Below are positions 28,022 through 50,864 of a DNA stretch of 57,522 bases, piece after piece. The translations under genes were made by a program, and so were the position numbers. Source of the DNA: Sphaerochaetaceae bacterium (GTDB lineage Bacteria; Spirochaetota; Spirochaetia; Sphaerochaetales; Sphaerochaetaceae); the NCBI GenBank assembly GCA_028700425.1, contig JAQVSP010000002.1, forward strand, positions 1 through 57,522, written 5' to 3'. The notes under the pieces are model-generated. The model was given only the letters and a program-made list of their open reading frames with translations. It was not told the DNA's origin and did no database searches. Each line of letters opens with the position of its first letter. Position 1 is the stretch's first letter.

Positions 28022-29959
28022 ATGAGAAGAACAGTCAATGCAATACCCCAGTCATTCCTTGATTGCAAGGAAAGCTTTGAGACCTTGCAGTCCATATTCA
28101 GGCAGACAGACATTCTTGTGCTGCCTACCCTGACAGAGCAGCAGGAGCAGTGGCTGGACAAGGCCATGGCCTTCAGGAATGCCTTTGCTGTCGACTATGA
28201 TGTCCTGCTCAAGGGCGGCCTTGATTCAGGGATCATCTCCCTTGTGCTTTGCCGCTGCAAGCTCTCTGGAGACACCGAGCATAACAGCGCCCGGCTGGCA
28301 GCCAAGCTTGGCAATGTGGATCTGGTATTCTGGAGCGATGAGAAGCTTTGCGATGCTGACAGGCGCTATGTGAGCCACGCAAGGCCCATAGAGCATCTGA
28401 GCTACGGGGAGGCTGCCGAGCTTTCCTTCTTCGGATCCAAGCTGCTTCACAGCGCTCACATGGCCCCTGCCATGGAGAAGGGCATCGCAGTGAAGCTTGC
28501 CTGCCTCAGCGACCCGGATGCCAAGGGAACCATCATTGATTCCAATGTCGTTGAGTCCAGCAGAATAGTAAGCGGATTTGGGCTCATAGAGAATGTTGCC
28601 CTGCTTAGCATAGAAGGTCCTCTGATGAGCGGGGTGCCTGGAGTGTCCTCCAGGCTCTTCACTGCCCTCAGCGACCAGAATGTCTCGGTGATAATGATAA
28701 GCCAGGCTTCCAGCGAGTACTCCATATGCCTTGCTGTGGATGCAAGCGTCAAGGACAAGGCTGCAGAAGCTGCAAAGCAGGCCATGGGCGCCTTGTTTGC
28801 TGATATGATCGAGGTCAGGGCAGTGCCTGACTGCGCCATCATAGCCGCCGTCGGCGAGAGGATGGCAGGCTCGGTGGGAGTTTCTGCCAGGCTTTTCAGC
28901 AGCCTGGCAAGGGCAAACGTGAGCGCCAAAGCCATATCCCAGGGCTCCATGGAGCGCAACATAAGCGTGGTTGTAGACAAGGCTGATGTGAAGAAGGCCC
29001 TCATGAGCCTTCACGATGCTTTCTTCGCTCCCAAGGGCCCAAGGCTGCTTATAGCAGGATCGGGCAATGTGGCATCAGCCTTGATGAAGCTTCTTGCCAG
29101 GCGAACCGATGTCTCTGTCAGTGCAATCTGCAACAGCCGATCAGCCTTGCTTGATCCCCTAAGCCGAAAGGACTGGAAGCAGGATCTTCTGGTGGCTGAT
29201 TCCAGGTCCCTGGAAAGCCTTATGGACAGCCTGGATTACGACATACTTGTGGACTGCACGGCATCCAGCAAGACCGCAGACCTTTATGAGAAGGCTCTTG
29301 GAAGCGGAAGATGGGTAGTGGCAGCCAACAAGGACTGGGCAAGCCGAAAGGGCACAGACCCAAGGCGCATTGGCCATGAAGCCACTGTAGGGGCAGGACT
29401 GCCGCTAATGAGAACCCTTAGGTCCCTGAAGGCAACAGGGGATGAGATAACAGCCATAGAGGCAACCCTGTCTGGAACGCTTTGCTGGATATTCAGCAGC
29501 CTTGATGAGTCAGCAAGCTTTTCTGAGCTGGTGATCAAGGCCCATGAGCTTGGCTACACTGAGCCAGATCCAAGAATGGATCTCAGCGGGCTTGACGTGG
29601 CCCGCAAGGCTGTGATACTTGGCAAGGAGATGGGAATGGATTGCTGCCTGGAAGATGCAAAGGTCCAGAGCCTTGTTCCAGAAGGACTTGAAGGCGTGAG
29701 CAAGGAGGAGTTCCTCTCTCGTCTCAAGGACCATGACAGCGAGCTGGGCAAGCTGGGCAAGGTAAGCTATGTAGCATCCATCAAGCCTGGCTGCATTGAG
29801 TGCGGTCTCAGGCCCTTTGACTATGCCCAGGGCAAGAACAATGCCATTGTGATCTATACCAAGGCCTATGAGAGCGGACTGGTCATCCAGGGCCCGGGGG
29901 CTGGAGCTGATGTTACAGCCTATGGCGTTCTGGCCGATATACTTGACTGGAGGAGATGA
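28022..29959 (+). CDS. ThrA-like protein: truncated aspartokinase domain, ACT domains, homoserine dehydrogenase
   Basis: The protein has 645 aa, against about 820 for ThrA. The order is an aspartokinase C-terminal remnant (about 1-175), two ACT-type regulatory domains (about 190-335) and homoserine dehydrogenase (340-645). The dehydrogenase looks intact: GSGNV at 346-350, VVAANKDW, EATVGAGLPLMRTL, SGTLCWIFS and DLSGLDVARKAVIL. The kinase part lacks the starting KFGGTS motif, and SGDTEHNSARLAA stands where GRxGSDxSA is expected, while WSDEKLCDADRR and LSYGEAAELSFFGSKLLH still align. So it should make homoserine but not aspartyl phosphate; an aspartokinase elsewhere is implied. rpmB lies only 111 bp upstream, so no missing front is hidden. 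ATG 28022 has AAGGAGAAAG. thrC follows by one base. Confidence 0.85.
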   Translation: MRRTVNAIPQSFLDCKESFETLQSIFRQTDILVLPTLTEQQEQWLDKAMAFRNAFAVDYDVLLKGGLDSGIISLVLCRCKLSGDTEHNSARLAAKLGNVDLVFWSDEKLCDADRRYVSHARPIEHLSYGEAAELSFFGSKLLHSAHMAPAMEKGIAVKLACLSDPDAKGTIIDSNVVESSRIVSGFGLIENVALLSIEGPLMSGVPGVSSRLFTALSDQNVSVIMISQASSEYSICLAVDASVKDKAAEAAKQAMGALFADMIEVRAVPDCAIIAAVGERMAGSVGVSARLFSSLARANVSAKAISQGSMERNISVVVDKADVKKALMSLHDAFFAPKGPRLLIAGSGNVASALMKLLARRTDVSVSAICNSRSALLDPLSRKDWKQDLLVADSRSLESLMDSLDYDILVDCTASSKTADLYEKALGSGRWVVAANKDWASRKGTDPRRIGHEATVGAGLPLMRTLRSLKATGDEITAIEATLSGTLCWIFSSLDESASFSELVIKAHELGYTEPDPRMDLSGLDVARKAVILGKEMGMDCCLEDAKVQSLVPEGLEGVSKEEFLSRLKDHDSELGKLGKVSYVASIKPGCIECGLRPFDYAQGKNNAIVIYTKAYESGLVIQGPGAGADVTAYGVLADILDWRR

Positions 29960-35273: not shown

Positions 35274-38200
35274 TTGGGCATAAGGACGATTCTATGCAGG
35301 AAAAGGGTGCTTCTCTGCTTTTTGCTTATTCTTGCCATGCTTCCAGCCAGGGCCTACAAGGTCGGCCTCTATGAGATGAATGGCTTGCTCCGTGTGAATG
35401 CAAGCGGCCAGTATGCTGGATACATTATCGATTACATGGACATGCTCGAGTCCTATTGTCCAGAGGGCTTCGAGTATGAGCTGCATAGCCTGGATGAGTG
35501 CATGAATCTTATGGAGAATGGGGAGCTGGACTGCATACCAGCCCTTGAGCGCAGCGAGGATAGGCTCAGGCGCTTTGACTTCTCAAGCATCTCCATGGGC
35601 TCTGATGGATGTCAGCTTGCATGCCTGGAATCGGCGCATATGAATGCAAGCTCGTCCCTGGACAATCTGAAGGTGGGAATCATAGCAAGATCCATATACG
35701 GAAAAGCCTTGCTGGAATATGCCCTAGTCCACTCGCAGGCTCCACAGATAATTGAGTACAGCACCCAGGAAGAGCTTGCCAAGGCTCTTGAAGACGGGCA
35801 GATCGATGCCGTGGCAATGAGCCGTGCAGGCCTTCTTCCTGGCTGCAAGGTCATCCTGGAGATACCGACCTCTCCGTTCTATATAGCCACATCCAAGAGC
35901 AATCCGGCGGTCCTCTACGACATAGAGGATGCCCAGAGAGCCCTTTTTGCAGACAACCCTGCCATCATATCTGAATTGTCGCGCATTCATTACAATGTAG
36001 GATCCAACAAGCCTCTGGTGCTCACCCGCGAAGAGGAGCAGTACGTTGCTTCGGCCGATCCCATACGCGTGGCAGTGAACACCAACGCTCCTCCATATGC
36101 ATATTACTCCTCCAAATCGGTGGTCAAGGGCCTGATTGTGGATCTGCTTGGCATCATCAGCGAGAAGACTGGGCTTCAGTTCACTCTCATAGAGGTCAGG
36201 GACTTCGAGGAGGCCTACCTGCTTGCAAAGGAGGGAAGGGCTGACGTGCTTGGCCTCTGCTACAGCGACAAGGCATTCTGCGAGTACAATGGACTCGATA
36301 GCACCTCGTCCTTCCTTTCAAGCCAGATGGTGCGGGTCTATAATGCCGAGAAGGAGAATGGCCAGCTTGCGGTGGTGTCGGGAACCTACAGCGAGTTCCT
36401 CTGCCAGCAGAAGCAGCTTGCCTGCCAGCCTTACAGCACATGGAAGACAGTCTTTGATGCCATTCTTGACAACAAGACCGGCCTTGTCTATGTCAACCAG
36501 AACACAGCCAGCTTCTTTCTGAACCAGCCTCGCTACAGCAGCCTGACCTACACCTATCAGGATCATCTGGACAAGGCATTGCTCACCTTGGGCATGATCA
36601 AGGCCGAGGATCCAGTTCTTCTCGGGATTCTCAGCAAGACCATAGATGCCATTCCAGAGGATATGATAGACAGGGCCCTTGTAAGCTCCATGAGGCTTGA
36701 CAACGGAGTGTTCACCAGCCTTGTCATGTCCTATCCAGGAGCCTTCATAGCATCGGCGCTCTTTGTCATCTGCCTTATCATATTCATATCCATTCTCATA
36801 AGCCAGATACGTAAGAGGAAGGCCAAGGAAGCTGAGAGCCAGATAATAGCGGCCAGGGACCTGGCCCTGTCCCAGAGAAGGCAGGCTGAGCTGGACAAGC
36901 TGACCATGATCTTCACCAGGACAGCCTTTGAAACAAGGCTTGGGAAGATGCTTAGGGAGAACGCTTTCGAATCCTATGTTGCCGTAAGCATGAAGATCGG
37001 CCATTTCAGCCTTTACAGCGATGTCTTTGGCAACGAGGCGGTGGATTCTCTGATAGCAAGTGTTGCAGGTGCCTTGAATGCCTTCTGCAAGGACCTGGCT
37101 CAGAAAGACAGATGCCTGTACGGAAGGCTTCATGACGATCATTTCATAGCTGTCTTCTTGAAGGAGGACCTGGATCTGGAGGGTCTTTCCCAGTCCATCG
37201 GGCAGGTCTGCCTGCAGAACGAGACTTCCATCGAGCTGGTGCCTCGCTTTGGAATCTATCCCATAGAGGATTCAAGCCAGGCTCCTGAGGAGATCTGCAC
37301 CATAGCCGACTCGGTCCTGCATGGAGATGATCAGAGATCGATACACTACTACTCTCATGACTCCCAGAAGAAGAGGGCCCTTGAACAGGAGGTACTGTCG
37401 AGCTTCTCGACGGCCTTGAAGAATGAAGAGCTATGCATGTACCTGCAGCCTATATGCAGCAGGGATGGCAGGATATCAAGCGCAGAGGCCTTGGCTCGCT
37501 GGATACGAAAGTCCGGCCAGGTCATAATGCCTCAGGTCTTCATTCCTGTTCTTGAGAAGAGCGGGCTGATCAGCAAGCTTGACTTCTACATGCTTGGCCA
37601 AGCGCTCAGGTACATCGAGGACCGCAGGTCCAGGGGCCTCTTCCTCTTCCCGATCTCAGTGAACTTCTCAAGAGTGAGCCTTTTCTCAAACAGCTTTGAG
37701 CATAACATTGACGAGATTCTAGCCCGGTTCAATGTAGACAGCAGCTTGCTGTATATAGAGATCACAGAGTCCACAATAGCCAGCTCCCCGCGCTATCTGC
37801 TGGATGTCATCAACCGCCTTCATCAGAAGGGCCTCAAGATCATGATGGATGATTTTGGATCTGGATATTCCTCGCTTAACATGCTGATGGACATGCCAGT
37901 GGATTTTCTGAAGCTGGACATGAGCTTCGTCCGTTCGGTTGTAACCTCCACAAGAGCCCAGAAGATTGTCCAGTCTGTCTGCAAGCTCGCCCAGGCTATG
38001 CGCCTCATAACTGTATCAGAGGGCATCGAGACAGAGGAGCAGCTCTTCATGATGGAAAGCTTTGGCTGCGATTTCTTCCAGGGCTTCTATTTCTCGGCTC
38101 CTGTTGGGACAAAGGCCTATGAGGACATGGGCTTTGAGGCTGCAGCCAGCACTGACACAGGCCATATGGCAGCAAGCGAGGACAGTACAAGCGGCTCTTC

Positions 38201-39482
38201 GATGAGAAGCATATTGTCCAACCTGGCTGTAGGGATAGCCATCTACCCCTTCGATGAGCCTGATAAGCCCATGTTCATGAACTTCAGCCTGTGCGACATG
38301 ATATGTGCAGCCTCTGAGAGCAAGGAGTCTGCGCTGTCCAGGTTCGTCGGCCGGCTCTTTGATGAAGGAAAGGCCAGCATAACAGAGCGCATGGGAGACT
38401 TTGTCAAGGGCAAGCTCTACGAGAAGGAGACCAGGTTTCTCCGCGCCGATGGCAAGACTCTGGTCATCAAGGCAAAGGTGCGCTTCGCGGCCAGCCTTGA
38501 TGGCGCCTATACCTGCTATGCCTGCTGCGAGGACATCACTGAGGTAGTGCAGAACCGACAGGCCAATGCCTGGCAGGCAGAGCGCTTCAAGGTCCTGGCC
38601 GAGATGACCAACATGCTTGTCTTCGACTATGACTGCAGGACAAGCATCCTCTCTTATTCCATTGTGCTTGGAGAGGCTGGCATGATAGAGGTCAAGCGTG
38701 AGCTTGGAGACATCAGCGAAGGTGCGTTGCCCAATTTCCCGCCTCAGAGCATGGCCTTGCTAAGGTCAAGCTTCAAGTCTCTTATGCAGAATCCTGGCAC
38801 CACCACCATTGAGCTCCAGACCAAGCTTCCAGGCAAGGAGGATGTGCGCTGGTATGCCATGAGGATACAGAGCATACAGGATGAAGATGGATCGGTTTAC
38901 AGCCTTGTAGGAGGCTTTGAGGATATCCAGTCGGCAAAGGAGCAGGAGAAAGAGAGCAAGATGCGCGAGCAGGACCTCATACGGCAGGCCTACTATGACA
39001 TGACCACATCGGTTCTGACCCGGTTCGCCTTTGAGCAGGCCTCACAGAGGATGCTGATGATGGCAAGCCCTTCACAGGTCTCGATGCTCTGCATTTATGA
39101 CCTGGACAACCTGAAGTACATCAACGATCACTGGGGCCACCAGAGGGGCGATCTGGCGCTCATGCTCATCAGCCAGGCTTTCAAGGCTTCCCCAATCATG
39201 ACAGAGGCTGTATTTGGCAGGGTCGGAGGAGATGAGTTTGGCATCATAATGCCCCTGAGAATCAGCCAGGAGGCTCTTCTCAAGGGCCTTGAGGAGATCC
39301 AGTCAAGCATAGCTGAGCTCAGGACCCAGGTGGATGAGGGAGCTTCCCTGTCTGTAAGCGGAGGCATTGTCATAGCCAATAGGCCAATGGCTTATGCTGA
39401 GGCCTTCCAGATTGCAGACCGGGCCCTGTACAAGGCAAAGCAAGGCGGAAAGGGCTGCTTCCATATAAGCGAGCAGCAGTAG
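35274..39482 (+). CDS. Giant membrane c-di-GMP sensor: SBP_bac_3 x2, TM, GGDEF-like, EAL, PAS region, GGDEF
   Basis: About 1402 aa from TTG 35274, chosen for GGAGGG (35263-35268); the frame is open from 35229. A signal peptide ends about residue 28 (PARA-YK). Two periplasmic SBP_bac_3 domains follow (about 28-240 and 265-485), the type that binds amino acids in BvgS-like sensors. One membrane helix lies near 490-515. Next is a degenerate GGDEF (site LHDDHF), then an EAL domain with E738-A739-L740, IEITES, MMDDFGSGYSSL, KLDMSFV, SEGIE and QGFYFS all kept. PAS-like regions (about 985-1215) lead to a complete GGDEF (1318-1322, RVGGDEF). It could both make and break c-di-GMP under ligand control. 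Its last 816 codons are duplicated downstream. Confidence 0.93.
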   Translation: MGIRTILCRKRVLLCFLLILAMLPARAYKVGLYEMNGLLRVNASGQYAGYIIDYMDMLESYCPEGFEYELHSLDECMNLMENGELDCIPALERSEDRLRRFDFSSISMGSDGCQLACLESAHMNASSSLDNLKVGIIARSIYGKALLEYALVHSQAPQIIEYSTQEELAKALEDGQIDAVAMSRAGLLPGCKVILEIPTSPFYIATSKSNPAVLYDIEDAQRALFADNPAIISELSRIHYNVGSNKPLVLTREEEQYVASADPIRVAVNTNAPPYAYYSSKSVVKGLIVDLLGIISEKTGLQFTLIEVRDFEEAYLLAKEGRADVLGLCYSDKAFCEYNGLDSTSSFLSSQMVRVYNAEKENGQLAVVSGTYSEFLCQQKQLACQPYSTWKTVFDAILDNKTGLVYVNQNTASFFLNQPRYSSLTYTYQDHLDKALLTLGMIKAEDPVLLGILSKTIDAIPEDMIDRALVSSMRLDNGVFTSLVMSYPGAFIASALFVICLIIFISILISQIRKRKAKEAESQIIAARDLALSQRRQAELDKLTMIFTRTAFETRLGKMLRENAFESYVAVSMKIGHFSLYSDVFGNEAVDSLIASVAGALNAFCKDLAQKDRCLYGRLHDDHFIAVFLKEDLDLEGLSQSIGQVCLQNETSIELVPRFGIYPIEDSSQAPEEICTIADSVLHGDDQRSIHYYSHDSQKKRALEQEVLSSFSTALKNEELCMYLQPICSRDGRISSAEALARWIRKSGQVIMPQVFIPVLEKSGLISKLDFYMLGQALRYIEDRRSRGLFLFPISVNFSRVSLFSNSFEHNIDEILARFNVDSSLLYIEITESTIASSPRYLLDVINRLHQKGLKIMMDDFGSGYSSLNMLMDMPVDFLKLDMSFVRSVVTSTRAQKIVQSVCKLAQAMRLITVSEGIETEEQLFMMESFGCDFFQGFYFSAPVGTKAYEDMGFEAAASTDTGHMAASEDSTSGSSMRSILSNLAVGIAIYPFDEPDKPMFMNFSLCDMICAASESKESALSRFVGRLFDEGKASITERMGDFVKGKLYEKETRFLRADGKTLVIKAKVRFAASLDGAYTCYACCEDITEVVQNRQANAWQAERFKVLAEMTNMLVFDYDCRTSILSYSIVLGEAGMIEVKRELGDISEGALPNFPPQSMALLRSSFKSLMQNPGTTTIELQTKLPGKEDVRWYAMRIQSIQDEDGSVYSLVGGFEDIQSAKEQEKESKMREQDLIRQAYYDMTTSVLTRFAFEQASQRMLMMASPSQVSMLCIYDLDNLKYINDHWGHQRGDLALMLISQAFKASPIMTEAVFGRVGGDEFGIIMPLRISQEALLKGLEEIQSSIAELRTQVDEGASLSVSGGIVIANRPMAYAEAFQIADRALYKAKQGGKGCFHISEQQ

Positions 39483-39934
39483 CCTGAAGCTTCGAGATTG
39501 ACGTTTCCATCAAGCTGACTTAAACTCTAGCTAGAGGTCACATGAGAGTATTAGTCATCAACCCCGGCGCAGTCTCCACCAAGATAAGCATATTTGAAGA
39601 GGAAGTTGAGGTCTTCAGAACATCCATTCCTCACAGCGACTCAGACCTCAGGCAGTTTGACAGGATCATAGACCAGAAGGCCTATCGCATGGGCCTGGCA
39701 AGAGAAGCGCTTCGCTCTTCAGGGTTCAGCAGCTTTGATGCCATATGCTCAAGGGGTGGGCTTCTTGCCCACATTCCTTCAGGCACCTATCTCATCAACG
39801 AGGCTGCCATTGCTGATGTGCTAGACCCTCCCTATGGGGAGCATGCCTCGAATCTGGGAATCCTGATGGCTCATCAGCTGAGCATAGAGTACAATTGCCC
39901 AGCCTGCTTCGTCGATCCGGTGAGCACCGATGAG
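37032..39934 (+). repeat. Tandem duplication, unit 1 (2,903 bp)
   Basis: Unit 1 starts at codon 587 of the giant sensor gene and ends after codon 131 of the first buk copy. The same sequence repeats head-to-tail at 39935-42837, with no difference in the stretches compared and identical translations. At the ends, TTTGGC|AACGAG (left), GATGAG|AACGAG (junction) and GATGAG|CTTTGC (right) share no bases at the breakpoints. Confidence 0.97.
39498..39526 (+). promoter_or_regulatory. buk promoter, copy 1, with palindrome
   Basis: TTGACG (39498-39503), 17 bp, TAAACT (39521-39526). The 12-bp perfect palindrome CTCTAGCTAGAG (39525-39536) overlaps the -10 box end and reaches the AGAGG ribosome-binding site, an operator candidate. 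Here it drives the chimeric gene. Confidence 0.75.
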
Positions 39935-42385
39935 AACGAGGCGGTGGATTCTCTGATAGCAAGTGTTGCAGGTGCCTTGAATGCCTTCTGCAAGGACCTG
40001 GCTCAGAAAGACAGATGCCTGTACGGAAGGCTTCATGACGATCATTTCATAGCTGTCTTCTTGAAGGAGGACCTGGATCTGGAGGGTCTTTCCCAGTCCA
40101 TCGGGCAGGTCTGCCTGCAGAACGAGACTTCCATCGAGCTGGTGCCTCGCTTTGGAATCTATCCCATAGAGGATTCAAGCCAGGCTCCTGAGGAGATCTG
40201 CACCATAGCCGACTCGGTCCTGCATGGAGATGATCAGAGATCGATACACTACTACTCTCATGACTCCCAGAAGAAGAGGGCCCTTGAACAGGAGGTACTG
40301 TCGAGCTTCTCGACGGCCTTGAAGAATGAAGAGCTATGCATGTACCTGCAGCCTATATGCAGCAGGGATGGCAGGATATCAAGCGCAGAGGCCTTGGCTC
40401 GCTGGATACGAAAGTCCGGCCAGGTCATAATGCCTCAGGTCTTCATTCCTGTTCTTGAGAAGAGCGGGCTGATCAGCAAGCTTGACTTCTACATGCTTGG
40501 CCAAGCGCTCAGGTACATCGAGGACCGCAGGTCCAGGGGCCTCTTCCTCTTCCCGATCTCAGTGAACTTCTCAAGAGTGAGCCTTTTCTCAAACAGCTTT
40601 GAGCATAACATTGACGAGATTCTAGCCCGGTTCAATGTAGACAGCAGCTTGCTGTATATAGAGATCACAGAGTCCACAATAGCCAGCTCCCCGCGCTATC
40701 TGCTGGATGTCATCAACCGCCTTCATCAGAAGGGCCTCAAGATCATGATGGATGATTTTGGATCTGGATATTCCTCGCTTAACATGCTGATGGACATGCC
40801 AGTGGATTTTCTGAAGCTGGACATGAGCTTCGTCCGTTCGGTTGTAACCTCCACAAGAGCCCAGAAGATTGTCCAGTCTGTCTGCAAGCTCGCCCAGGCT
40901 ATGCGCCTCATAACTGTATCAGAGGGCATCGAGACAGAGGAGCAGCTCTTCATGATGGAAAGCTTTGGCTGCGATTTCTTCCAGGGCTTCTATTTCTCGG
41001 CTCCTGTTGGGACAAAGGCCTATGAGGACATGGGCTTTGAGGCTGCAGCCAGCACTGACACAGGCCATATGGCAGCAAGCGAGGACAGTACAAGCGGCTC
41101 TTCGATGAGAAGCATATTGTCCAACCTGGCTGTAGGGATAGCCATCTACCCCTTCGATGAGCCTGATAAGCCCATGTTCATGAACTTCAGCCTGTGCGAC
41201 ATGATATGTGCAGCCTCTGAGAGCAAGGAGTCTGCGCTGTCCAGGTTCGTCGGCCGGCTCTTTGATGAAGGAAAGGCCAGCATAACAGAGCGCATGGGAG
41301 ACTTTGTCAAGGGCAAGCTCTACGAGAAGGAGACCAGGTTTCTCCGCGCCGATGGCAAGACTCTGGTCATCAAGGCAAAGGTGCGCTTCGCGGCCAGCCT
41401 TGATGGCGCCTATACCTGCTATGCCTGCTGCGAGGACATCACTGAGGTAGTGCAGAACCGACAGGCCAATGCCTGGCAGGCAGAGCGCTTCAAGGTCCTG
41501 GCCGAGATGACCAACATGCTTGTCTTCGACTATGACTGCAGGACAAGCATCCTCTCTTATTCCATTGTGCTTGGAGAGGCTGGCATGATAGAGGTCAAGC
41601 GTGAGCTTGGAGACATCAGCGAAGGTGCGTTGCCCAATTTCCCGCCTCAGAGCATGGCCTTGCTAAGGTCAAGCTTCAAGTCTCTTATGCAGAATCCTGG
41701 CACCACCACCATTGAGCTCCAGACCAAGCTTCCAGGCAAGGAGGATGTGCGCTGGTATGCCATGAGGATACAGAGCATACAGGATGAAGATGGATCGGTT
41801 TACAGCCTTGTAGGAGGCTTTGAGGATATCCAGTCGGCAAAGGAGCAGGAGAAAGAGAGCAAGATGCGCGAGCAGGACCTCATACGGCAGGCCTACTATG
41901 ACATGACCACATCGGTTCTGACCCGGTTCGCCTTTGAGCAGGCCTCACAGAGGATGCTGATGATGGCAAGCCCTTCACAGGTCTCGATGCTCTGCATTTA
42001 TGACCTGGACAACCTGAAGTACATCAACGATCACTGGGGCCACCAGAGGGGCGATCTGGCGCTCATGCTCATCAGCCAGGCTTTCAAGGCTTCCCCAATC
42101 ATGACAGAGGCTGTATTTGGCAGGGTCGGAGGAGATGAGTTTGGCATCATAATGCCCCTGAGAATCAGCCAGGAGGCTCTTCTCAAGGGCCTTGAGGAGA
42201 TCCAGTCAAGCATAGCTGAGCTCAGGACCCAGGTGGATGAGGGAGCTTCCCTGTCTGTAAGCGGAGGCATTGTCATAGCCAATAGGCCAATGGCTTATGC
42301 TGAGGCCTTCCAGATTGCAGACCGGGCCCTGTACAAGGCAAAGCAAGGCGGAAAGGGCTGCTTCCATATAAGCGAGCAGCAGTAG
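39542..42385 (+). CDS. Chimeric gene: butyrate kinase N-terminus fused to EAL-PAS-GGDEF
   Basis: This 947-codon frame was made by the tandem duplication. Residues 1-131 equal the start of butyrate kinase (MRVLVINPGAVSTK to ...VDPVSTDE). Residue 132 is N587 of the giant sensor, and the rest is identical to the sensor to its end. The join (39934/39935) is at a codon boundary in both parents, so the frame stays open. The product keeps the back half of the degenerate GGDEF, the whole EAL domain, the PAS region and the RVGGDEF domain. It loses signal peptide, SBP domains and membrane helix, so it would be cytoplasmic. The Buk part is only the first half of an ASKHA fold and should not be active. 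It has the buk promoter and AGAGG ribosome-binding site. Whether it exists in the cell depends on the assembly being right. Confidence 0.85.
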   Translation: MRVLVINPGAVSTKISIFEEEVEVFRTSIPHSDSDLRQFDRIIDQKAYRMGLAREALRSSGFSSFDAICSRGGLLAHIPSGTYLINEAAIADVLDPPYGEHASNLGILMAHQLSIEYNCPACFVDPVSTDENEAVDSLIASVAGALNAFCKDLAQKDRCLYGRLHDDHFIAVFLKEDLDLEGLSQSIGQVCLQNETSIELVPRFGIYPIEDSSQAPEEICTIADSVLHGDDQRSIHYYSHDSQKKRALEQEVLSSFSTALKNEELCMYLQPICSRDGRISSAEALARWIRKSGQVIMPQVFIPVLEKSGLISKLDFYMLGQALRYIEDRRSRGLFLFPISVNFSRVSLFSNSFEHNIDEILARFNVDSSLLYIEITESTIASSPRYLLDVINRLHQKGLKIMMDDFGSGYSSLNMLMDMPVDFLKLDMSFVRSVVTSTRAQKIVQSVCKLAQAMRLITVSEGIETEEQLFMMESFGCDFFQGFYFSAPVGTKAYEDMGFEAAASTDTGHMAASEDSTSGSSMRSILSNLAVGIAIYPFDEPDKPMFMNFSLCDMICAASESKESALSRFVGRLFDEGKASITERMGDFVKGKLYEKETRFLRADGKTLVIKAKVRFAASLDGAYTCYACCEDITEVVQNRQANAWQAERFKVLAEMTNMLVFDYDCRTSILSYSIVLGEAGMIEVKRELGDISEGALPNFPPQSMALLRSSFKSLMQNPGTTTIELQTKLPGKEDVRWYAMRIQSIQDEDGSVYSLVGGFEDIQSAKEQEKESKMREQDLIRQAYYDMTTSVLTRFAFEQASQRMLMMASPSQVSMLCIYDLDNLKYINDHWGHQRGDLALMLISQAFKASPIMTEAVFGRVGGDEFGIIMPLRISQEALLKGLEEIQSSIAELRTQVDEGASLSVSGGIVIANRPMAYAEAFQIADRALYKAKQGGKGCFHISEQQ

Positions 42386-42837
42386 CCTGAAGCTTCGAGA
42401 TTGACGTTTCCATCAAGCTGACTTAAACTCTAGCTAGAGGTCACATGAGAGTATTAGTCATCAACCCCGGCGCAGTCTCCACCAAGATAAGCATATTTGA
42501 AGAGGAAGTTGAGGTCTTCAGAACATCCATTCCTCACAGCGACTCAGACCTCAGGCAGTTTGACAGGATCATAGACCAGAAGGCCTATCGCATGGGCCTG
42601 GCAAGAGAAGCGCTTCGCTCTTCAGGGTTCAGCAGCTTTGATGCCATATGCTCAAGGGGTGGGCTTCTTGCCCACATTCCTTCAGGCACCTATCTCATCA
42701 ACGAGGCTGCCATTGCTGATGTGCTAGACCCTCCCTATGGGGAGCATGCCTCGAATCTGGGAATCCTGATGGCTCATCAGCTGAGCATAGAGTACAATTG
42801 CCCAGCCTGCTTCGTCGATCCGGTGAGCACCGATGAG
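39935..42837 (+). repeat. Tandem duplication, unit 2 (2,903 bp)
   Basis: Second head-to-tail copy of 37032-39934. It contains the chimera's c-di-GMP part (39935-42385), a second copy of the buk promoter and the first 131 codons of the intact buk gene. 2,903 is not a multiple of three, yet the junction is in frame because both breakpoints are at codon starts. Confidence 0.97.
42401..42429 (+). promoter_or_regulatory. buk promoter, copy 2, with palindrome
   Basis: TTGACG (42401-42406), 17 bp, TAAACT (42424-42429), identical to copy 1. The palindrome is at 42428-42439. This copy drives the intact buk operon. Confidence 0.75.
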
Positions 42838-43518
42838 CTTTGCCCCTTGGCGCGCTACAGCGGGTTTGCCCCCATGCAGCGCGAAAGCTTCTTTCATGCC
42901 CTCAACCAGAAGAGCATGGCAAGAAAGGCCGCTGAGATCCTTGGGCGCAGGTATGAGGACCTGAATCTCATAGTCGTCCATATGGGCGGAGGCGTCTCGG
43001 TGGCTGCCCACCGCAAGGGCCTTGTAATTGACAACTACAATGTGAAGGACGATGGGTCCTTTTCCATGGACAGGGCTGGGGCCCTGCCTGTGAACGCAGT
43101 GATAAACTATTGCTTCTCCGGCCTGACCAAGGCCCAGGTCAAGAAGACCCTGGGCTATGAGGCAGGAGTCTACTCCTACCTAGGCACCAGAAGCTTCATG
43201 GAGGTTGAGCAAAGGGCAAAGGAAGACCCCAAGGCCCGCGAGGTCATGGAGGCTCTTGTCTACCAGCATGCCAAGGACATCGGGGCCATGGCTGCGGTGC
43301 TTAAGTTCAAGGTGGATGCAATAGTCTTGACAGGAGGCATGGCCAACAGCCAGCTTTTGTGCTACTCAATCTGCGAGTATGTAGGCTCCATAGCCCGCAT
43401 CATCATCCTTCCAGGTGAAAGCGAGATGACAGCCCTTTGCCAAGGAGCCTTGAGAATGCTTCGAGGAGAGGGAACCAGAGTATATCCAAGTGGAGAGATA
43501 AATGAGACATCTAGATGA
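42445..43518 (+). CDS. buk: Butyrate kinase (branched/aryl acyl kinase)
   Basis: This 357-aa ASKHA-fold kinase transfers phosphate from an acyl phosphate to ADP. It starts MRVLVINPGAVSTKISIFE, with VVHMGGGVSVAAHRKG near residue 174, GSFSMDRAGALP, and the late nucleotide-binding TGGMANS. Length matches Clostridium Buk. With the following genes it should recover ATP from acyl-CoA made from amino acids, so branched or aromatic acyl phosphates are as likely as butyryl phosphate. The ptb gene overlaps its end by 17 bp. The first 131 codons are also present in the chimera upstream. Confidence 0.95.
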   Translation: MRVLVINPGAVSTKISIFEEEVEVFRTSIPHSDSDLRQFDRIIDQKAYRMGLAREALRSSGFSSFDAICSRGGLLAHIPSGTYLINEAAIADVLDPPYGEHASNLGILMAHQLSIEYNCPACFVDPVSTDELCPLARYSGFAPMQRESFFHALNQKSMARKAAEILGRRYEDLNLIVVHMGGGVSVAAHRKGLVIDNYNVKDDGSFSMDRAGALPVNAVINYCFSGLTKAQVKKTLGYEAGVYSYLGTRSFMEVEQRAKEDPKAREVMEALVYQHAKDIGAMAAVLKFKVDAIVLTGGMANSQLLCYSICEYVGSIARIIILPGESEMTALCQGALRMLRGEGTRVYPSGEINETSR

Positions 43519-44383
43519 GCTTTTTGCTCTGTGCAAGGGGCATAGGACCTGCGCTGTAGCTCAGGCTGCAGACAGGCCTGTGCTTGAGGCATGCGTCATG
43601 GCCAAGGCCCGGAATCTGGCCAGCTTCATCCTTTGCGGCGACAAGGCAGCGATTGAGGCAGGCCTGAAAGACCTTGGCGAGGAGGCTGGGGCCTGGGACA
43701 TACGCCACCAGGACAGCCCACAGGCCTGTGCAGCGGAAGCTGTGAGGCTGGCAAGGGAGGGGGAGGCAAGCCTTCTGATGAAGGGCTTATTGAGCACCTC
43801 GATTCTCATGAGAGCTGTCCTTGACAGGGAGAAGGGCATAAGAGGGCCAGGCCTGCTAAGCCATGTGATGGCCTATGAGGTGCCTTCCTGCCCTAGGATC
43901 CTCTTCAATACCGACGGCGGGCTCAATACCTTTCCCAATGCAGAGCAGAAGGCCATGATACTTGAGAATGCCATAGGCCTTCTGCACAGGCTTGGCTACA
44001 TAGGCATCAACGCAGCCCTGATAGCAGGCAGCGAGACTGTGGATCCAAAGATACAGGCCACTTTGGATGCGCAGAAAATATGTGCGCAGCAAGAAAGGTG
44101 GGAAAGCCTTGGCTGCAATGTATATGGACCTGTGGGCCTGGACCTTGCAATAAGCAAGGACGCATGCGCTCATAAGGGCTATGAGGCCAAGGGAGCAGGG
44201 GAGGCCGACATACTGCTGGTTCCAACCTATGAGGTGGGAAACGCCATGGGCAAGGCCCTGACCTACTTTGCCAACGCTCAGAGCGCAGGCATCATAGTCG
44301 GAGCGGCCTGCCCGATTGTTCTTGTATCGCGATCAGACAGCGCCATGACGAAGCTTCACTCCATCGCCATGGCTCTTGCATAG
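43502..44383 (+). CDS. ptb: Phosphate butyryltransferase (phosphotransacylase)
   Basis: The 293-aa enzyme converts acyl-CoA and phosphate to acyl phosphate and CoA. ACVMAKARNLASFILCGDKAAIE (split) at about 30-52, LLMKGLLSTSILMRAVLD and the late VPTYEVGNAMGKALTYFA motif fit Ptb. ATG 43502 has GGAGAG upstream and lies inside the end of buk. The order buk-ptb is the reverse of that in Clostridium acetobutylicum (ptb-buk). AGGAGG follows its stop for iorA. Confidence 0.94.
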   Translation: MRHLDELFALCKGHRTCAVAQAADRPVLEACVMAKARNLASFILCGDKAAIEAGLKDLGEEAGAWDIRHQDSPQACAAEAVRLAREGEASLLMKGLLSTSILMRAVLDREKGIRGPGLLSHVMAYEVPSCPRILFNTDGGLNTFPNAEQKAMILENAIGLLHRLGYIGINAALIAGSETVDPKIQATLDAQKICAQQERWESLGCNVYGPVGLDLAISKDACAHKGYEAKGAGEADILLVPTYEVGNAMGKALTYFANAQSAGIIVGAACPIVLVSRSDSAMTKLHSIAMALA

Positions 44384-44393
44384 GAGGTTTACC

Positions 44394-46145
44394 ATGCCAA
44401 AACATCTTTACAGCGGAAATGAGGCTGTTGCAAGAGGCGCTTATGAGGCGGGGGTCAAGGTGTGCTCAGCCTACCCAGGCACTCCAAGCACCGAGATATT
44501 CGAATCCTTGCCCCAGTATGAGCCAGCTCTCTATTGCGAGTGGGCTCCCAATGAGAAGGTTGCCCTTGAGGTTGCCTATGGCGCCTCTATAGCCAACGTG
44601 CGCTCGATGTGCGCAATGAAGCACGTCGGGCTCAATGTGGCCGCCGATCCCATGTTCACCGCAGCCTACAATGGGGTGGGAGCAGGGTTTGTGATCATCA
44701 CCGCCGACGATCCGGACATGCATAGCTCCCAGAACGAGCAGGACAACCGGCGCTATGCTGAGTTTGCCAAGATCCCCATGCTTGAGCCTTCTGACAGCCT
44801 TGAGTGCCAGGCCTTCATCAAGGAGGCCTTCGAGATATCGGAGAGATTCGATGTTCCGGTGATATTTCGCATGACCACCCGCCTTTGCCACTCAAAGAGC
44901 CTCATAGAGCTTCACGAGCCAATAGAGATTGAATCCAAGCCCTACAGCAGAAATGCATCCAAGTTCGTCTCCACCCCTGCAAACGCCAGGCGCAACCATG
45001 CAAGCCTTGAGAAGAAGCTTGCAGATCTGGAGGCCTTCTCCAACGCAAGCCCCTTGAACCAGGAGATAGACAATCCTGGAGCAACCATTGGTGTAATATC
45101 CAGCTCTGTTGCCTTCCTCTACGCCCAGGAGGCCTTTGGAGACAAGGCTTCCTACCTGAAGCTCGGGCTTACCTTCCCGCTTCCAATGGATAGGATAAGG
45201 CAGTTTGCCTCGCGTTTTGAGAGGGTAATTGTCATAGAGGAGCTGGAGCCCTTCATGGAGACTGCCATAAGGGCCGCAGGCATAGAGTGCGAAGGCAAGG
45301 CCATGACAGGCAAGATCTATGAGCTGAATCCTCAGTTGGTGGAGCAAAGGGTGCTTGGCATCCAGAAGCCCTATGTCGCTTGCCCCATCAAGCTTCCAGC
45401 AAGGGCTCCTTCGCTATGCCCAGGATGCCCACATAGAGGCTTCTTCTATGCCTTGTCCCAGAATGCAGACTATGTGATCTGCGGGGATATCGGCTGCTAC
45501 ACCCTAGGCTGCGCCCCTCCGCTGAATGCCATGGACAGCGTGGTATGCATGGGCGGCGGATTCACCCTTGCCCACGGCATGGCCAAGGCCTTCGAGATGC
45601 TTGGCGACAAGCGCCACAAGGTCTTCGGGGTGCTTGGGGACTCAACGTTCTTCCATTCAGGGCTTACTGGAGCATCGGAGATAATCTACAACAGCAGCTC
45701 TGTCATACCCTGCATCCTGGATAACAGGATAACCGGCATGACAGGCCAGCAGGACAACCCTGGAACAGGGCGCAATCTCATGGGCGGCAGCGCTCCTGTG
45801 CTGGACATAGAGGCGATTCTCAGGTCCATGGGCTATGACAAGGTCCTTGTCGTGGATCCCTGGAAGCTGGATGAGGTCAAGGCCGCCATCAAGGAAGCCC
45901 TGGATCATGAAGGCCATTGCGCCCTGATAGCCAAGAGGCCATGCCTTCTGATCAAGGGCGCACCCAGGACAGCTCGACGGTTTGCTGTGGACACCCAGGT
46001 CTGCAAGGCTTGCCGAAAGTGCCTCAAGCTTGGCTGTGGAGCCATAAGCATGAAGGAAGGCAAGTCCAGCATCGACCCGGTTCTTTGCGGGGGATGCTCA
46101 TTGTGCGCTCAGACATGCCCCTTTGGGGCAATCAAGGAGGCTTGA
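44394..46145 (+). CDS. iorA: Indolepyruvate ferredoxin oxidoreductase, alpha subunit
   Basis: This 583-aa protein decarboxylates aryl 2-oxoacids to aryl-acetyl-CoA with thiamine diphosphate, passing electrons to ferredoxin. It starts at ATG 44394 after TAGGAGG; the frame opens at 44376 inside ptb. GNEAVARGAYEAGVKVCSAYPGTPSTE (split) is the pyrimidine-binding start and GDIGCYTLG...GGGFTLAHG the TPP region. Two CxxCxxC-type Fe-S sets end the protein (CKACRKCLKLGCG and CGGCSLCAQTCPFGA). IorB follows by one base. Substrates of relatives are indolepyruvate, phenylpyruvate and hydroxyphenylpyruvate. Confidence 0.95.
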   Translation: MPKHLYSGNEAVARGAYEAGVKVCSAYPGTPSTEIFESLPQYEPALYCEWAPNEKVALEVAYGASIANVRSMCAMKHVGLNVAADPMFTAAYNGVGAGFVIITADDPDMHSSQNEQDNRRYAEFAKIPMLEPSDSLECQAFIKEAFEISERFDVPVIFRMTTRLCHSKSLIELHEPIEIESKPYSRNASKFVSTPANARRNHASLEKKLADLEAFSNASPLNQEIDNPGATIGVISSSVAFLYAQEAFGDKASYLKLGLTFPLPMDRIRQFASRFERVIVIEELEPFMETAIRAAGIECEGKAMTGKIYELNPQLVEQRVLGIQKPYVACPIKLPARAPSLCPGCPHRGFFYALSQNADYVICGDIGCYTLGCAPPLNAMDSVVCMGGGFTLAHGMAKAFEMLGDKRHKVFGVLGDSTFFHSGLTGASEIIYNSSSVIPCILDNRITGMTGQQDNPGTGRNLMGGSAPVLDIEAILRSMGYDKVLVVDPWKLDEVKAAIKEALDHEGHCALIAKRPCLLIKGAPRTARRFAVDTQVCKACRKCLKLGCGAISMKEGKSSIDPVLCGGCSLCAQTCPFGAIKEA

Positions 46146-46146
46146 G

Positions 46147-46716
46147 ATGACAAGCATGCTTATAGTTGGAGTTGGCGGCCAAGGCGCCATACTTTTCTCT
46201 AAGATCCTCACCGAAGCCTTGGTTGAAAAGGGCTATGATGTGAAGATGAGCGAGGTTCATGGCATGGCGCAGAGGGGAGGAAGCGTCTCCACCCAGGTTC
46301 GCTTTGGAAAGAAGGTTCTCTCCCCCATAATCGGGCTGGGAGAGGCTGACATCCTGGTCAGCCTGGAGGAGATGGAGAGCGCCAGGTACTGCAGCTATCT
46401 GAAGCCCGGCGCCATAGCCATCATAAATCGCTACAGGCTGCTGCCTGGCAGCCTTGCTGATGGAAAGGAGAGCTATCCTGAGGGCATAGTGGACTTCATG
46501 TCCGCACACTTTGAGACCCATCTTGTGGAGGCTGCAGCAGCTGCGCAGGCTCTAGGCAACTCAAGGTGCATGAACCTTGTGCTTCTTGGAGCCATGAGCA
46601 ACCTTGAAGCCTTCAAGGACCTAGATTGGGAGACCGTGATCAGAAGATCTGTTCCCCAGCGCCTGCTGGACCTTAATCTCAAGGCCTTCGAGGCAGGGAG
46701 GGCCTTGCCATGGTAA
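46147..46716 (+). CDS. iorB: Indolepyruvate ferredoxin oxidoreductase, beta subunit
   Basis: The 189-aa partner of IorA has LIVGVGGQGAILFSKIL (residues 5-21) and SEVHGMAQRGGSVSTQVRFG (about 39-58), which are diagnostic. ATG 46147 is one base after the iorA stop; the frame runs back to 46123 but that start is inside iorA. Its stop overlaps the start of the aminotransferase gene by seven bases. Confidence 0.95.
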   Translation: MTSMLIVGVGGQGAILFSKILTEALVEKGYDVKMSEVHGMAQRGGSVSTQVRFGKKVLSPIIGLGEADILVSLEEMESARYCSYLKPGAIAIINRYRLLPGSLADGKESYPEGIVDFMSAHFETHLVEAAAAAQALGNSRCMNLVLLGAMSNLEAFKDLDWETVIRRSVPQRLLDLNLKAFEAGRALPW

Positions 46717-47870
46717 GTTCCCTGATGGAAGCCTATGGAAGAAAGAGATCCTGCATAAGAGAGCTTTTCGAGTTCGGCAGAACCCTTGATCCAGACCTAG
46801 TCATGGACTTCAGCCTAGGAAATCCCAGCGTCAGGCCGCCCCAGGCTGTGCTGGATGCCTTGTCAGAGCTGGGCAAAAAGGATGTTCATGGCTACACGGT
46901 AGCTCCTGGATCCATGGAAGTCAGGAAGGCTGTATGCCGGCATCTCAACAGCATAGGCAAGGCTCACTACGAGCCAAGCGGCATAATCATGACATGCGGA
47001 GCGGCAGCGGCCTTGTGCATATGCATGAAGGCCTTAGCCATCGACTCTAGCACCCAGTTCCTGGCCCAGGCCCCGTACTTTGCTGAGTATGAGTGCTTTG
47101 CCCGCGGCTGTGGAGCCAGATTTGCGGCAGCTGAAGCTGATCTTGAAAGCTTTCAGATCAACTTCCCAGCCCTTGAAGCCCTTATCGGGCCAAGCACCCA
47201 GGCCCTTGTGCTCAACAGCCCCAACAATCCATCAGGGGCCATCTTGTCAGAATCCACCCTAAGGCGCCTTGCCCAGCTTCTTGAGAGAAGAAGCGCAGAG
47301 CTTGGCCATAGGATCTACATAATAAGCGATGAGCCCTACAGGGAGATTGTCTATGATGGGGCAAGCATGCCTCACATAGCGGACTGGTACGACAGCACCA
47401 TCGTCTGCTATTCCTACAGCAAGAGCTTCAGCCTGCCTGGTGACAGGATAGGCTACATCGCCGTCTCTGATAGCGTTGATGACAAGGACAGCCTCATGGC
47501 CAGCCTGGCTGGAAGCGCCAGGGCCATGGGCTATGTCTGCGCTCCATCGCTTCTTCAGGCAATGGTAGCTCGCTGTGCCGATGTAAAGCCGGACATCTCT
47601 TCCTATAGGGAGAACCGAGACCTGCTCCTTGGCAGCCTTGAAGCGATGGGATATGAGTGCGTGATGCCCAGCGGAGCCTTCTATCTTTTCATCAAGTCGC
47701 CCTATTCCAGCGCCAAGGCCTTCAGCGATGAGGCCAAGAAGCATGGGCTGCTGGTCGTCCCAAGCGATGACTTTGGCTGCAAGGGGTTCCTGCGAATAAG
47801 CTACTGCGTGGACAGAAAGGTCATAGAGCGCTCATTGCCTGTCTTTGAGAAGCTGCTTAAGCAGGACTAG
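46710..47870 (+). CDS. Class I aminotransferase (aspartate/aromatic type)
   Basis: This 386-aa PLP enzyme has the fold type I pattern. It opens with MDFSLGNPSVRPPQAVLDAL, has the NSPNNPSG motif, SDEPYREIVYDG, and YSYSKSFSLPGDRIGY with PLP lysine K238. It ends with an FLRISYCV arginine segment. In this operon it should move the amino group of aromatic or branched amino acids to a 2-oxoacid, feeding IorAB. The substrate cannot be read from sequence. Last gene of buk-ptb-iorA-iorB. It is convergent with the PH-domain gene four bases away. Confidence 0.92.
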   Translation: MVSSLMEAYGRKRSCIRELFEFGRTLDPDLVMDFSLGNPSVRPPQAVLDALSELGKKDVHGYTVAPGSMEVRKAVCRHLNSIGKAHYEPSGIIMTCGAAAALCICMKALAIDSSTQFLAQAPYFAEYECFARGCGARFAAAEADLESFQINFPALEALIGPSTQALVLNSPNNPSGAILSESTLRRLAQLLERRSAELGHRIYIISDEPYREIVYDGASMPHIADWYDSTIVCYSYSKSFSLPGDRIGYIAVSDSVDDKDSLMASLAGSARAMGYVCAPSLLQAMVARCADVKPDISSYRENRDLLLGSLEAMGYECVMPSGAFYLFIKSPYSSAKAFSDEAKKHGLLVVPSDDFGCKGFLRISYCVDRKVIERSLPVFEKLLKQD

Positions 47871-49802: not shown

Positions 49803-50864
49803 ATGGATGCAAAGAAAATCAAAGCCAAATATGACGAAAAGCGCATGAACCTTACCAAGACCTTGAAGAAAGGAACTCCAGAGTATGAGAAGCAGCTCAA
49901 GGCTCTGGACAAGGCTGAAAAAGAAGCGCTTGCACAAATTCCCATGACCAAGAGAGAGAAGATCAAGGCTGAGAAGGCCGAGATCTACAATCGTGTTCTT
50001 GAGCAGTGCCAGGCTCGCTGGGATGAAAAGTCCGCTCTAGCGCAGAAGCAGGCTGAGTCCCTGGCTGCCGAAGAAGCCAAGAAAGCTGCTGAAGCCAAGA
50101 AGGCCGAAGCCGCCAGAAAGGCAGAGGAAGCACGCAAGGCCGAGGAAGCCCGCAAGGCAGCCGAGGCCAAGAAGGCTGAAGAGGCCAGAAAGGCTGAGGA
50201 AGCACGCAAGGCCGAGGAAGCCCGCAAGGCAGCCGAGGCCAAGAAGGCCGAAGAGGCCAGAAAGGCTGAGGAAGCACGCAAGGCCGAAGAAGCCCGCAAG
50301 GCAGCCGAGGCCAAGAAGGCCGAAGAGGCCAAGAAGGCTGAAGATGAGGCTCGCAAGGCAGCTGAAGAGGCCAAGACTGCTGATGAAGCCCGCAAGGCTG
50401 CAGAGGCAGCAAGGCTTGAGGAGCTTGCCAGGGCGACTATCAGGAAGATTGAGGAACAGGAAGCTGAAAAGGCAAAGAAAGAGAGGAGACCTCCAAAGCC
50501 GGTTGACTTCAATTTCCTTTCCAGGAGAGCATCCAAGCTTTATGACGATACATTTGTAGCCTTGCATGACCTTCAGGCCCAGGTAGACCGGAAGAATGGC
50601 GAAATCAAGGCTCTCAGGACCCCAAAGGATGCAACTGAGGACCAGAAGAAGGAGCTGTCAGCAAGGCGCGCTATTTTGAAAGCCGAGGCGAAGAAGCTTC
50701 AGGCAGCATTTGAGATCAAGGTTGAGTGCGCAATCTCTCTTCAGAAGAACATACTCGATTACCAGACCGTTCTCAGAGCGCAGAAGCAGGAAGTCAAGGT
50801 CTATAACAAGCAGCCGCTTCTGGAGCTGGTTGAAGAAGTTGATCCTAATGAGCTGAGCAGATGA
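49803..50864 (+). CDS. Cytoplasmic Ala/Lys/Glu coiled-coil protein, TolA-like in composition
   Basis: This 353-aa protein has a charged N-terminal part (1-80), a long repetitive helix (about 80-215) built from AEAKKAEEARKAEEARK-type units, and a non-repetitive C-terminal domain (about 225-353: FNFLSRRASKLYDDTFVALHDL and further predicted helices). There is no signal peptide or membrane segment, so despite the TolA-like repeat it is not TolA. The central part should form a single long alpha-helix or coiled coil. No family is recognised. It has its own promoter and terminator, so it is monocistronic. GGGAGGC precedes ATG 49803. Confidence 0.82.
   Translation: MDAKKIKAKYDEKRMNLTKTLKKGTPEYEKQLKALDKAEKEALAQIPMTKREKIKAEKAEIYNRVLEQCQARWDEKSALAQKQAESLAAEEAKKAAEAKKAEAARKAEEARKAEEARKAAEAKKAEEARKAEEARKAEEARKAAEAKKAEEARKAEEARKAEEARKAAEAKKAEEAKKAEDEARKAAEEAKTADEARKAAEAARLEELARATIRKIEEQEAEKAKKERRPPKPVDFNFLSRRASKLYDDTFVALHDLQAQVDRKNGEIKALRTPKDATEDQKKELSARRAILKAEAKKLQAAFEIKVECAISLQKNILDYQTVLRAQKQEVKVYNKQPLLELVEEVDPNELSR
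50089..50340 (+). repeat. 72-nt in-frame tandem repeat (about 3.5 copies)
   Basis: Repeat starts are at 50089, 50161, 50233 and 50305, exactly 72 bases apart. Each encodes 24 residues of the A/K/E/R helix; within each unit a 15-nt sub-repeat (EEARK) is visible. The second and third copies are nearly identical. Confidence 0.9.

Follow-up and report, generated by a model that had tools for sequence, protein, structure and literature searches.

An in-frame butyrate kinase–EAL/GGDEF chimera at the join of an exact 2.9-kb tandem repeat in a Sphaerochaetaceae draft genome is very probably not an established gene

Two of the closest described systems to the locus reported here are tandem duplications. 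In Staphylococcus aureus, the tandem duplications nusG'-'sigH and rplK'-'sigH (PMC3486894) have a layout that the present chimera matches precisely. In the Cit+ lineage of the Escherichia coli long-term evolution experiment, the rnk-citG duplication set a gene behind its neighbor's promoter (Blount et al. 2012, in PMC5918244); it activated citT, left a truncated fusion open reading frame (ORF), and collapsed readily without selection. The precedents found are one laboratory selection and one evolution experiment. Here we examined the whole 57,522-nucleotide stretch of contig JAQVSP010000002.1 (hereafter the window) from the Sphaerochaetaceae bacterium assembly GCA_028700425.1, in which an exact tandem repeat joins the 5' part of a gene for butyrate kinase (buk, encoding Buk) in frame to the EAL and GGDEF domains of an upstream cyclic di-GMP (c-di-GMP) protein. 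The chimeric frame is very probably no established gene but a mechanical by-product, arising from a loop in the assembly or from a duplication that is very recent and unstable.

The two copies of the repeat lie head to tail, are identical at 2903 of 2903 positions, and break cleanly from the flanking context at both ends (Table 1). Taken as sequence, a perfect repeat of 2.9 kb is far beyond chance. At the join, GTGAGCACCGATGAG represents the Buk side and AACGAGGCG the side of the upstream c-di-GMP protein. Microhomology common to either partner's continuation amounts to 0 bp, as the left contexts end in GGC versus GAG and the right contexts start with AAC versus CTT; the breakpoints therefore lack the short direct repeat of short-junction (SJ) duplications. 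The assembly does contain two tandem direct copies with both parents intact, as expected of a chimeric gene made by duplication. The chimeric ORF begins with ATG and comprises 947 codons with no internal stop, continuous over the join, and both breakpoints fall at codon starts (39935 − 39542 = 393 = 131 × 3; 37032 − 35229 = 1803 = 601 × 3). This frame, together with the exact repeat and the residue identity to both parents, bears out the in-frame chimera described in a first-pass annotation of this DNA, and our computation agrees with the one-in-three chance of an open frame given there. Since frame agreement has a chance of 1/3, the in-frame join is no evidence of anything and needs no special cause.

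Table 1 Features of the repeat, the chimeric frame and its two parents in the window.
Feature	Coordinates	Strand	Basis
First copy of 2903-bp exact tandem repeat	37032..39934		Maximal identity run at lag 2903
Second copy of 2903-bp repeat	39935..42837		0 mismatches
Junction GTGAGCACCGATGAG / AACGAGGCG	39920..39943	+	Join between 39934 and 39935
Chimeric ORF, 947 amino acids: residues 1-131 = Buk 1-131, residues 132-947 = upstream parent 602-1417	39542..42385	+	ORF list, residue comparison
EAL domain of chimera (residues 255-488)	40304..41005	+	Pfam EAL, 213.9 bits
C-terminal GGDEF domain of chimera, RVGGDEF kept	41891..42355	+	Pfam GGDEF, 95.2 bits
Intact upstream parent, 1417 amino acids	35229..39482	+	ORF list, Pfam, hydropathy
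First GGDEF domain of parent, degenerate (GRLHDDHF at signature)	36885..37319	+	Domain match, sequence
Intact butyrate kinase, 357 amino acids	42445..43518	+	Nearest solved structure: butyrate kinase 2 (1saz/1x9j)
Weak promoter-like match ahead of buk start, TTGACG-17-TAAACT	39498..39526	+	Motif scan
Putative ribosome-binding site AGAGG, 4 nt ahead of ATG	39533..39537	+	Read from sequence

The window is one whole contig of a draft genome of 210 contigs that is 94.5% complete; a search of the draft for 16S gave no match. We inspected 136 contigs or contig parts, amounting to 1.27 Mb of 2.10 Mb (about 60%), with 8 short contigs consisting of N throughout. All exact end overlaps of at least 20 bp between fully read contigs were exactly 127 bp long (n = 10), and bases 1–127 of the window also open another contig (L185). 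Two further exact direct repeats of at least 60 bp within contigs, both on other contigs, are again exactly 127 bp each; one forms a loop of 330 bp where its contig begins, the other flanks a 100-N gap. In the 1.27 Mb examined, the 2,903-bp repeat alone among exact direct repeats inside a contig exceeds 127 bp. Judging from these lengths, the overlaps of 127 bases are the mark of a de Bruijn short-read assembly with k = 127. SPAdes, presumably the assembler used for this draft, goes up to k-mers of 127 (PMC5481147). With short reads, a repeat can be resolved only if it is no longer than the insert, which typically measures <1000 bp (PMC5481147); over an identical stretch of 2.9 kb such reads cannot separate one, two or many copies, or tell a repeat in the chromosome from a circle or from a variant carried by a minority. 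Because an assembly of this type can neither span nor count the 2.9-kb repeat, its existence on the chromosome and its copy number are not established.

Two sources of the join, of roughly equal probability, should therefore be considered. In the first, to which we give slightly less than an even chance, a chimeric read or low-coverage junction would have created a loop in the assembly graph; the k = 127 short-read assembler would have walked this loop twice and emitted the segment twice, and no chromosome would carry the duplication. The 127-base signature points this way, as does a repeat length far exceeding the span of short reads or inserts. Zero microhomology is also what 57% of random joins would show by our computation, and among Salmonella duplications that were tested, confirmation failed where the microhomology was 7 and 9 bp, whereas the confirmed ones had at least 11 bp (PMC3411829). 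However, random chimeras seldom bring together, in tandem orientation, two points that lie 2.9 kb from each other, and a 127-mer graph holds the junction only if some reads contain the junction sequence.

In the second, which we place almost level with the first, all or some of the sampled cells would carry a genuine, very recent and unstable tandem duplication made by illegitimate recombination, with no selected function and expected to collapse as its identical copies recombine. Perfect identity of the copies and intact parents fit a fresh tandem duplication, duplications of this sort occur often and are unstable (PMC3411829; PMC3486894), and microhomology is reported as not strictly required (PMC11111574). 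Against this, a k = 127 assembly cannot establish the repeat, the join itself lacks microhomology, and the duplication is unseen in relatives, though these are represented by one genome per species. Under either source, there is no trace of selection, because divergence between the copies is zero. The first-pass proposal of gene birth by tandem duplication is accordingly unsupported, as this type of assembly cannot prove the repeat, the copies have not diverged, and no relative has the fusion.

Loop walking, recency, instability and lack of function are our inferences, and three points weigh against a by-product of this kind. The breakpoints lie only 2.9 kb apart, on one contig and in the right orientation, which is rare for random ligation chimeras. 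With no further such repeat in the contigs examined, the assembler seldom makes them. Lastly, spontaneous duplication occurs often in growing bacteria, in an estimated ~20% of cells or more (PMC3411829), so that the present one could exist and selection could have acted on it.

A search for the same fusion in related genomes, the check proposed in the first-pass annotation, found none. At the DNA level the junction is absent from 60 relatives, and by protein search no fusion was detected in 139 family and 297 class genomes, where Buk and GGDEF/EAL proteins were found separately. With chimera residues 1–294 as the query, matches outside this genome end at 115–144, near the point where the Buk part stops. 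A search of GTDB contigs for relatives of the fusion returned only EAL/GGDEF relatives, mostly from Lachnospiraceae at 29–39% identity, with query matches starting at residue 133 or later and thus beyond the Buk part. Among the loci fetched, adjacency of EAL and buk was seen in this genome alone. The closest buk (G026, 64–65%) is arranged as buk-ptb-iorA, but only ~0.26 kb of sequence precedes buk there, and the ancestral state lacking the duplication is therefore not visible in it. With one genome per species, absence in relatives says little on a strain-level event. In six relatives (G221, G058, G180, G241, G037 and G210), Buk matches fall within open frames of ~740–752 amino acids, roughly twice the usual length; these are possibly Buk fused to Ptb or to a second kinase domain.

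The upstream parent has a signal-peptide-like hydrophobic N-terminus, two SBP_bac_3 domains, a membrane helix (residues 496–530), a degenerate GGDEF domain, an EAL domain, a weak PAS-like region, and a second GGDEF domain. The repeat starts (37032) about one third into the first, degenerate GGDEF domain. On the other side of the join, the break leaves Buk residues 1–131 of 357 and falls ahead of the whole Acetate_kinase Pfam match (150–304), and the chimera has no Acetate_kinase match or complete acetokinase fold. By domain matching, its first ~230 residues are two broken halves, one of Buk and one of the degenerate GGDEF. The first-pass annotation overlooked this position of the breakpoint inside two domains. 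Beyond the broken halves, the EAL motifs EALARW, NFSR, ITEST, DDFGSGYSSL, LKLD, SEGIET and FFQG are present. The chimera has the sequence features of a putative EAL phosphodiesterase and a putative GGDEF diguanylate cyclase. Between the two domains, a PAS_3 match falls below the cut-off (20.7 vs 25.6).

Were the duplication real, synthesis from the buk start site would give a soluble protein made up of the ~230 residues of broken halves followed by EAL and GGDEF domains that could each fold. Much of what the first-pass annotation claimed for this product is in keeping with our results. A hydropathy scan of the chimera gave no segment above threshold, so "soluble" is a fair description. Pfam and hydropathy confirm the loss of the signal peptide, the ligand-binding domains (both SBP_bac_3) and the membrane helix, and the motif check and alignment with the motility regulator in PDB 4rnh agree on the retention of the EAL catalytic residues and RVGGDEF. 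That the enzyme is "unregulated" is unproven, since the region between EAL and GGDEF, with its weak PAS-like match, stays.

The chimera was also said to gain the buk promoter and ribosome-binding site. The Buk upstream region and start site do precede it, but promoter-like matches are no commoner than in shuffled sequence (7 found versus 5.9 ± 2.5 expected). The related claim of an unregulated enzyme made together with fermentation enzymes is likewise unsupported. A selected fusion, in which the buk start would give a soluble EAL/GGDEF protein alongside the fermentation operon and alter c-di-GMP, possibly as a reversible switch, is very improbable: the EAL and GGDEF motifs are intact and the layout equals that of S. 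aureus nusG'-'sigH, where the chimera is made and active (PMC3486894), but divergence and conservation are lacking, both N-terminal domains are split, the promoter evidence is not above chance, and other GGDEF proteins are already encoded in the genome (15 GGDEF matches). We consider it just as improbable that a natural population carries a reversible in-frame duplication by which a cytoplasmic EAL-GGDEF enzyme is switched on from the fermentation-operon start, as a sigH-type contingency switch on c-di-GMP.

Several other genes in the window deserve mention. Genes for Buk, Ptb, an IorA-like protein (POR_N/TPP), an IorB-like protein (POR) and an aminotransferase lie in a row at 42445–47870, with the buk-ptb-iorA order common to G026 (L191). 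The row looks like an amino-acid fermentation operon yielding ATP via acyl phosphates, and therefore "butyrate" may not be the true substrate. A 353-amino-acid ORF at 49803–50864 contains an 18-bp repeat array encoding a coil rich in K, A and E, with only a sub-threshold Pfam match. At 28022–29959, a 645-amino-acid protein has homoserine dehydrogenase and ACT domains, and its amino-acid kinase match covers the C-terminal part of the profile only (149–231); it resembles a bifunctional aspartokinase-homoserine dehydrogenase whose kinase portion is shortened.

As it stands, the locus serves mainly as a caution: in short-read drafts, an exact repeat that exceeds the insert size, and any fusion gene annotated across it, needs read support before it is taken as biology. 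If real and expressed, the chimera would be an example from the wild of tandem duplication creating a chimeric signaling protein.

Its parts can be compared with solved proteins. The intact buk product is related to butyrate kinase 2 (PDB 1saz, 1x9j) over residues 2–343 with an E-value of about 3e-92. The start of the chimera matches the first ~137 residues of butyrate kinase 2, leaving out about two thirds of the fold. In the GGDEF-EAL protein 4rnh, both the EAL and GGDEF regions align with the chimera and the catalytic motifs are kept; compared with such proteins, the chimera has the order EAL then GGDEF, preceded by half a GGDEF and a kinase fragment. The S. aureus sigH junctions have direct repeats of 7–8 bp, whereas the present join has none. 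Those chimeras gave products visible by Western blot, and their clones arose under selection and revert (PMC3486894), while the present case is known from an assembly. The rnk-citG case differs from the present chimera in that its benefit is promoter capture by the complete gene citT and in being experimentally proven (PMC5918244). The layout of the chimera is nonetheless already known from S. aureus nusG'-'sigH and E. coli rnk-citG, so that a real chimera, too, would belong to a known kind.
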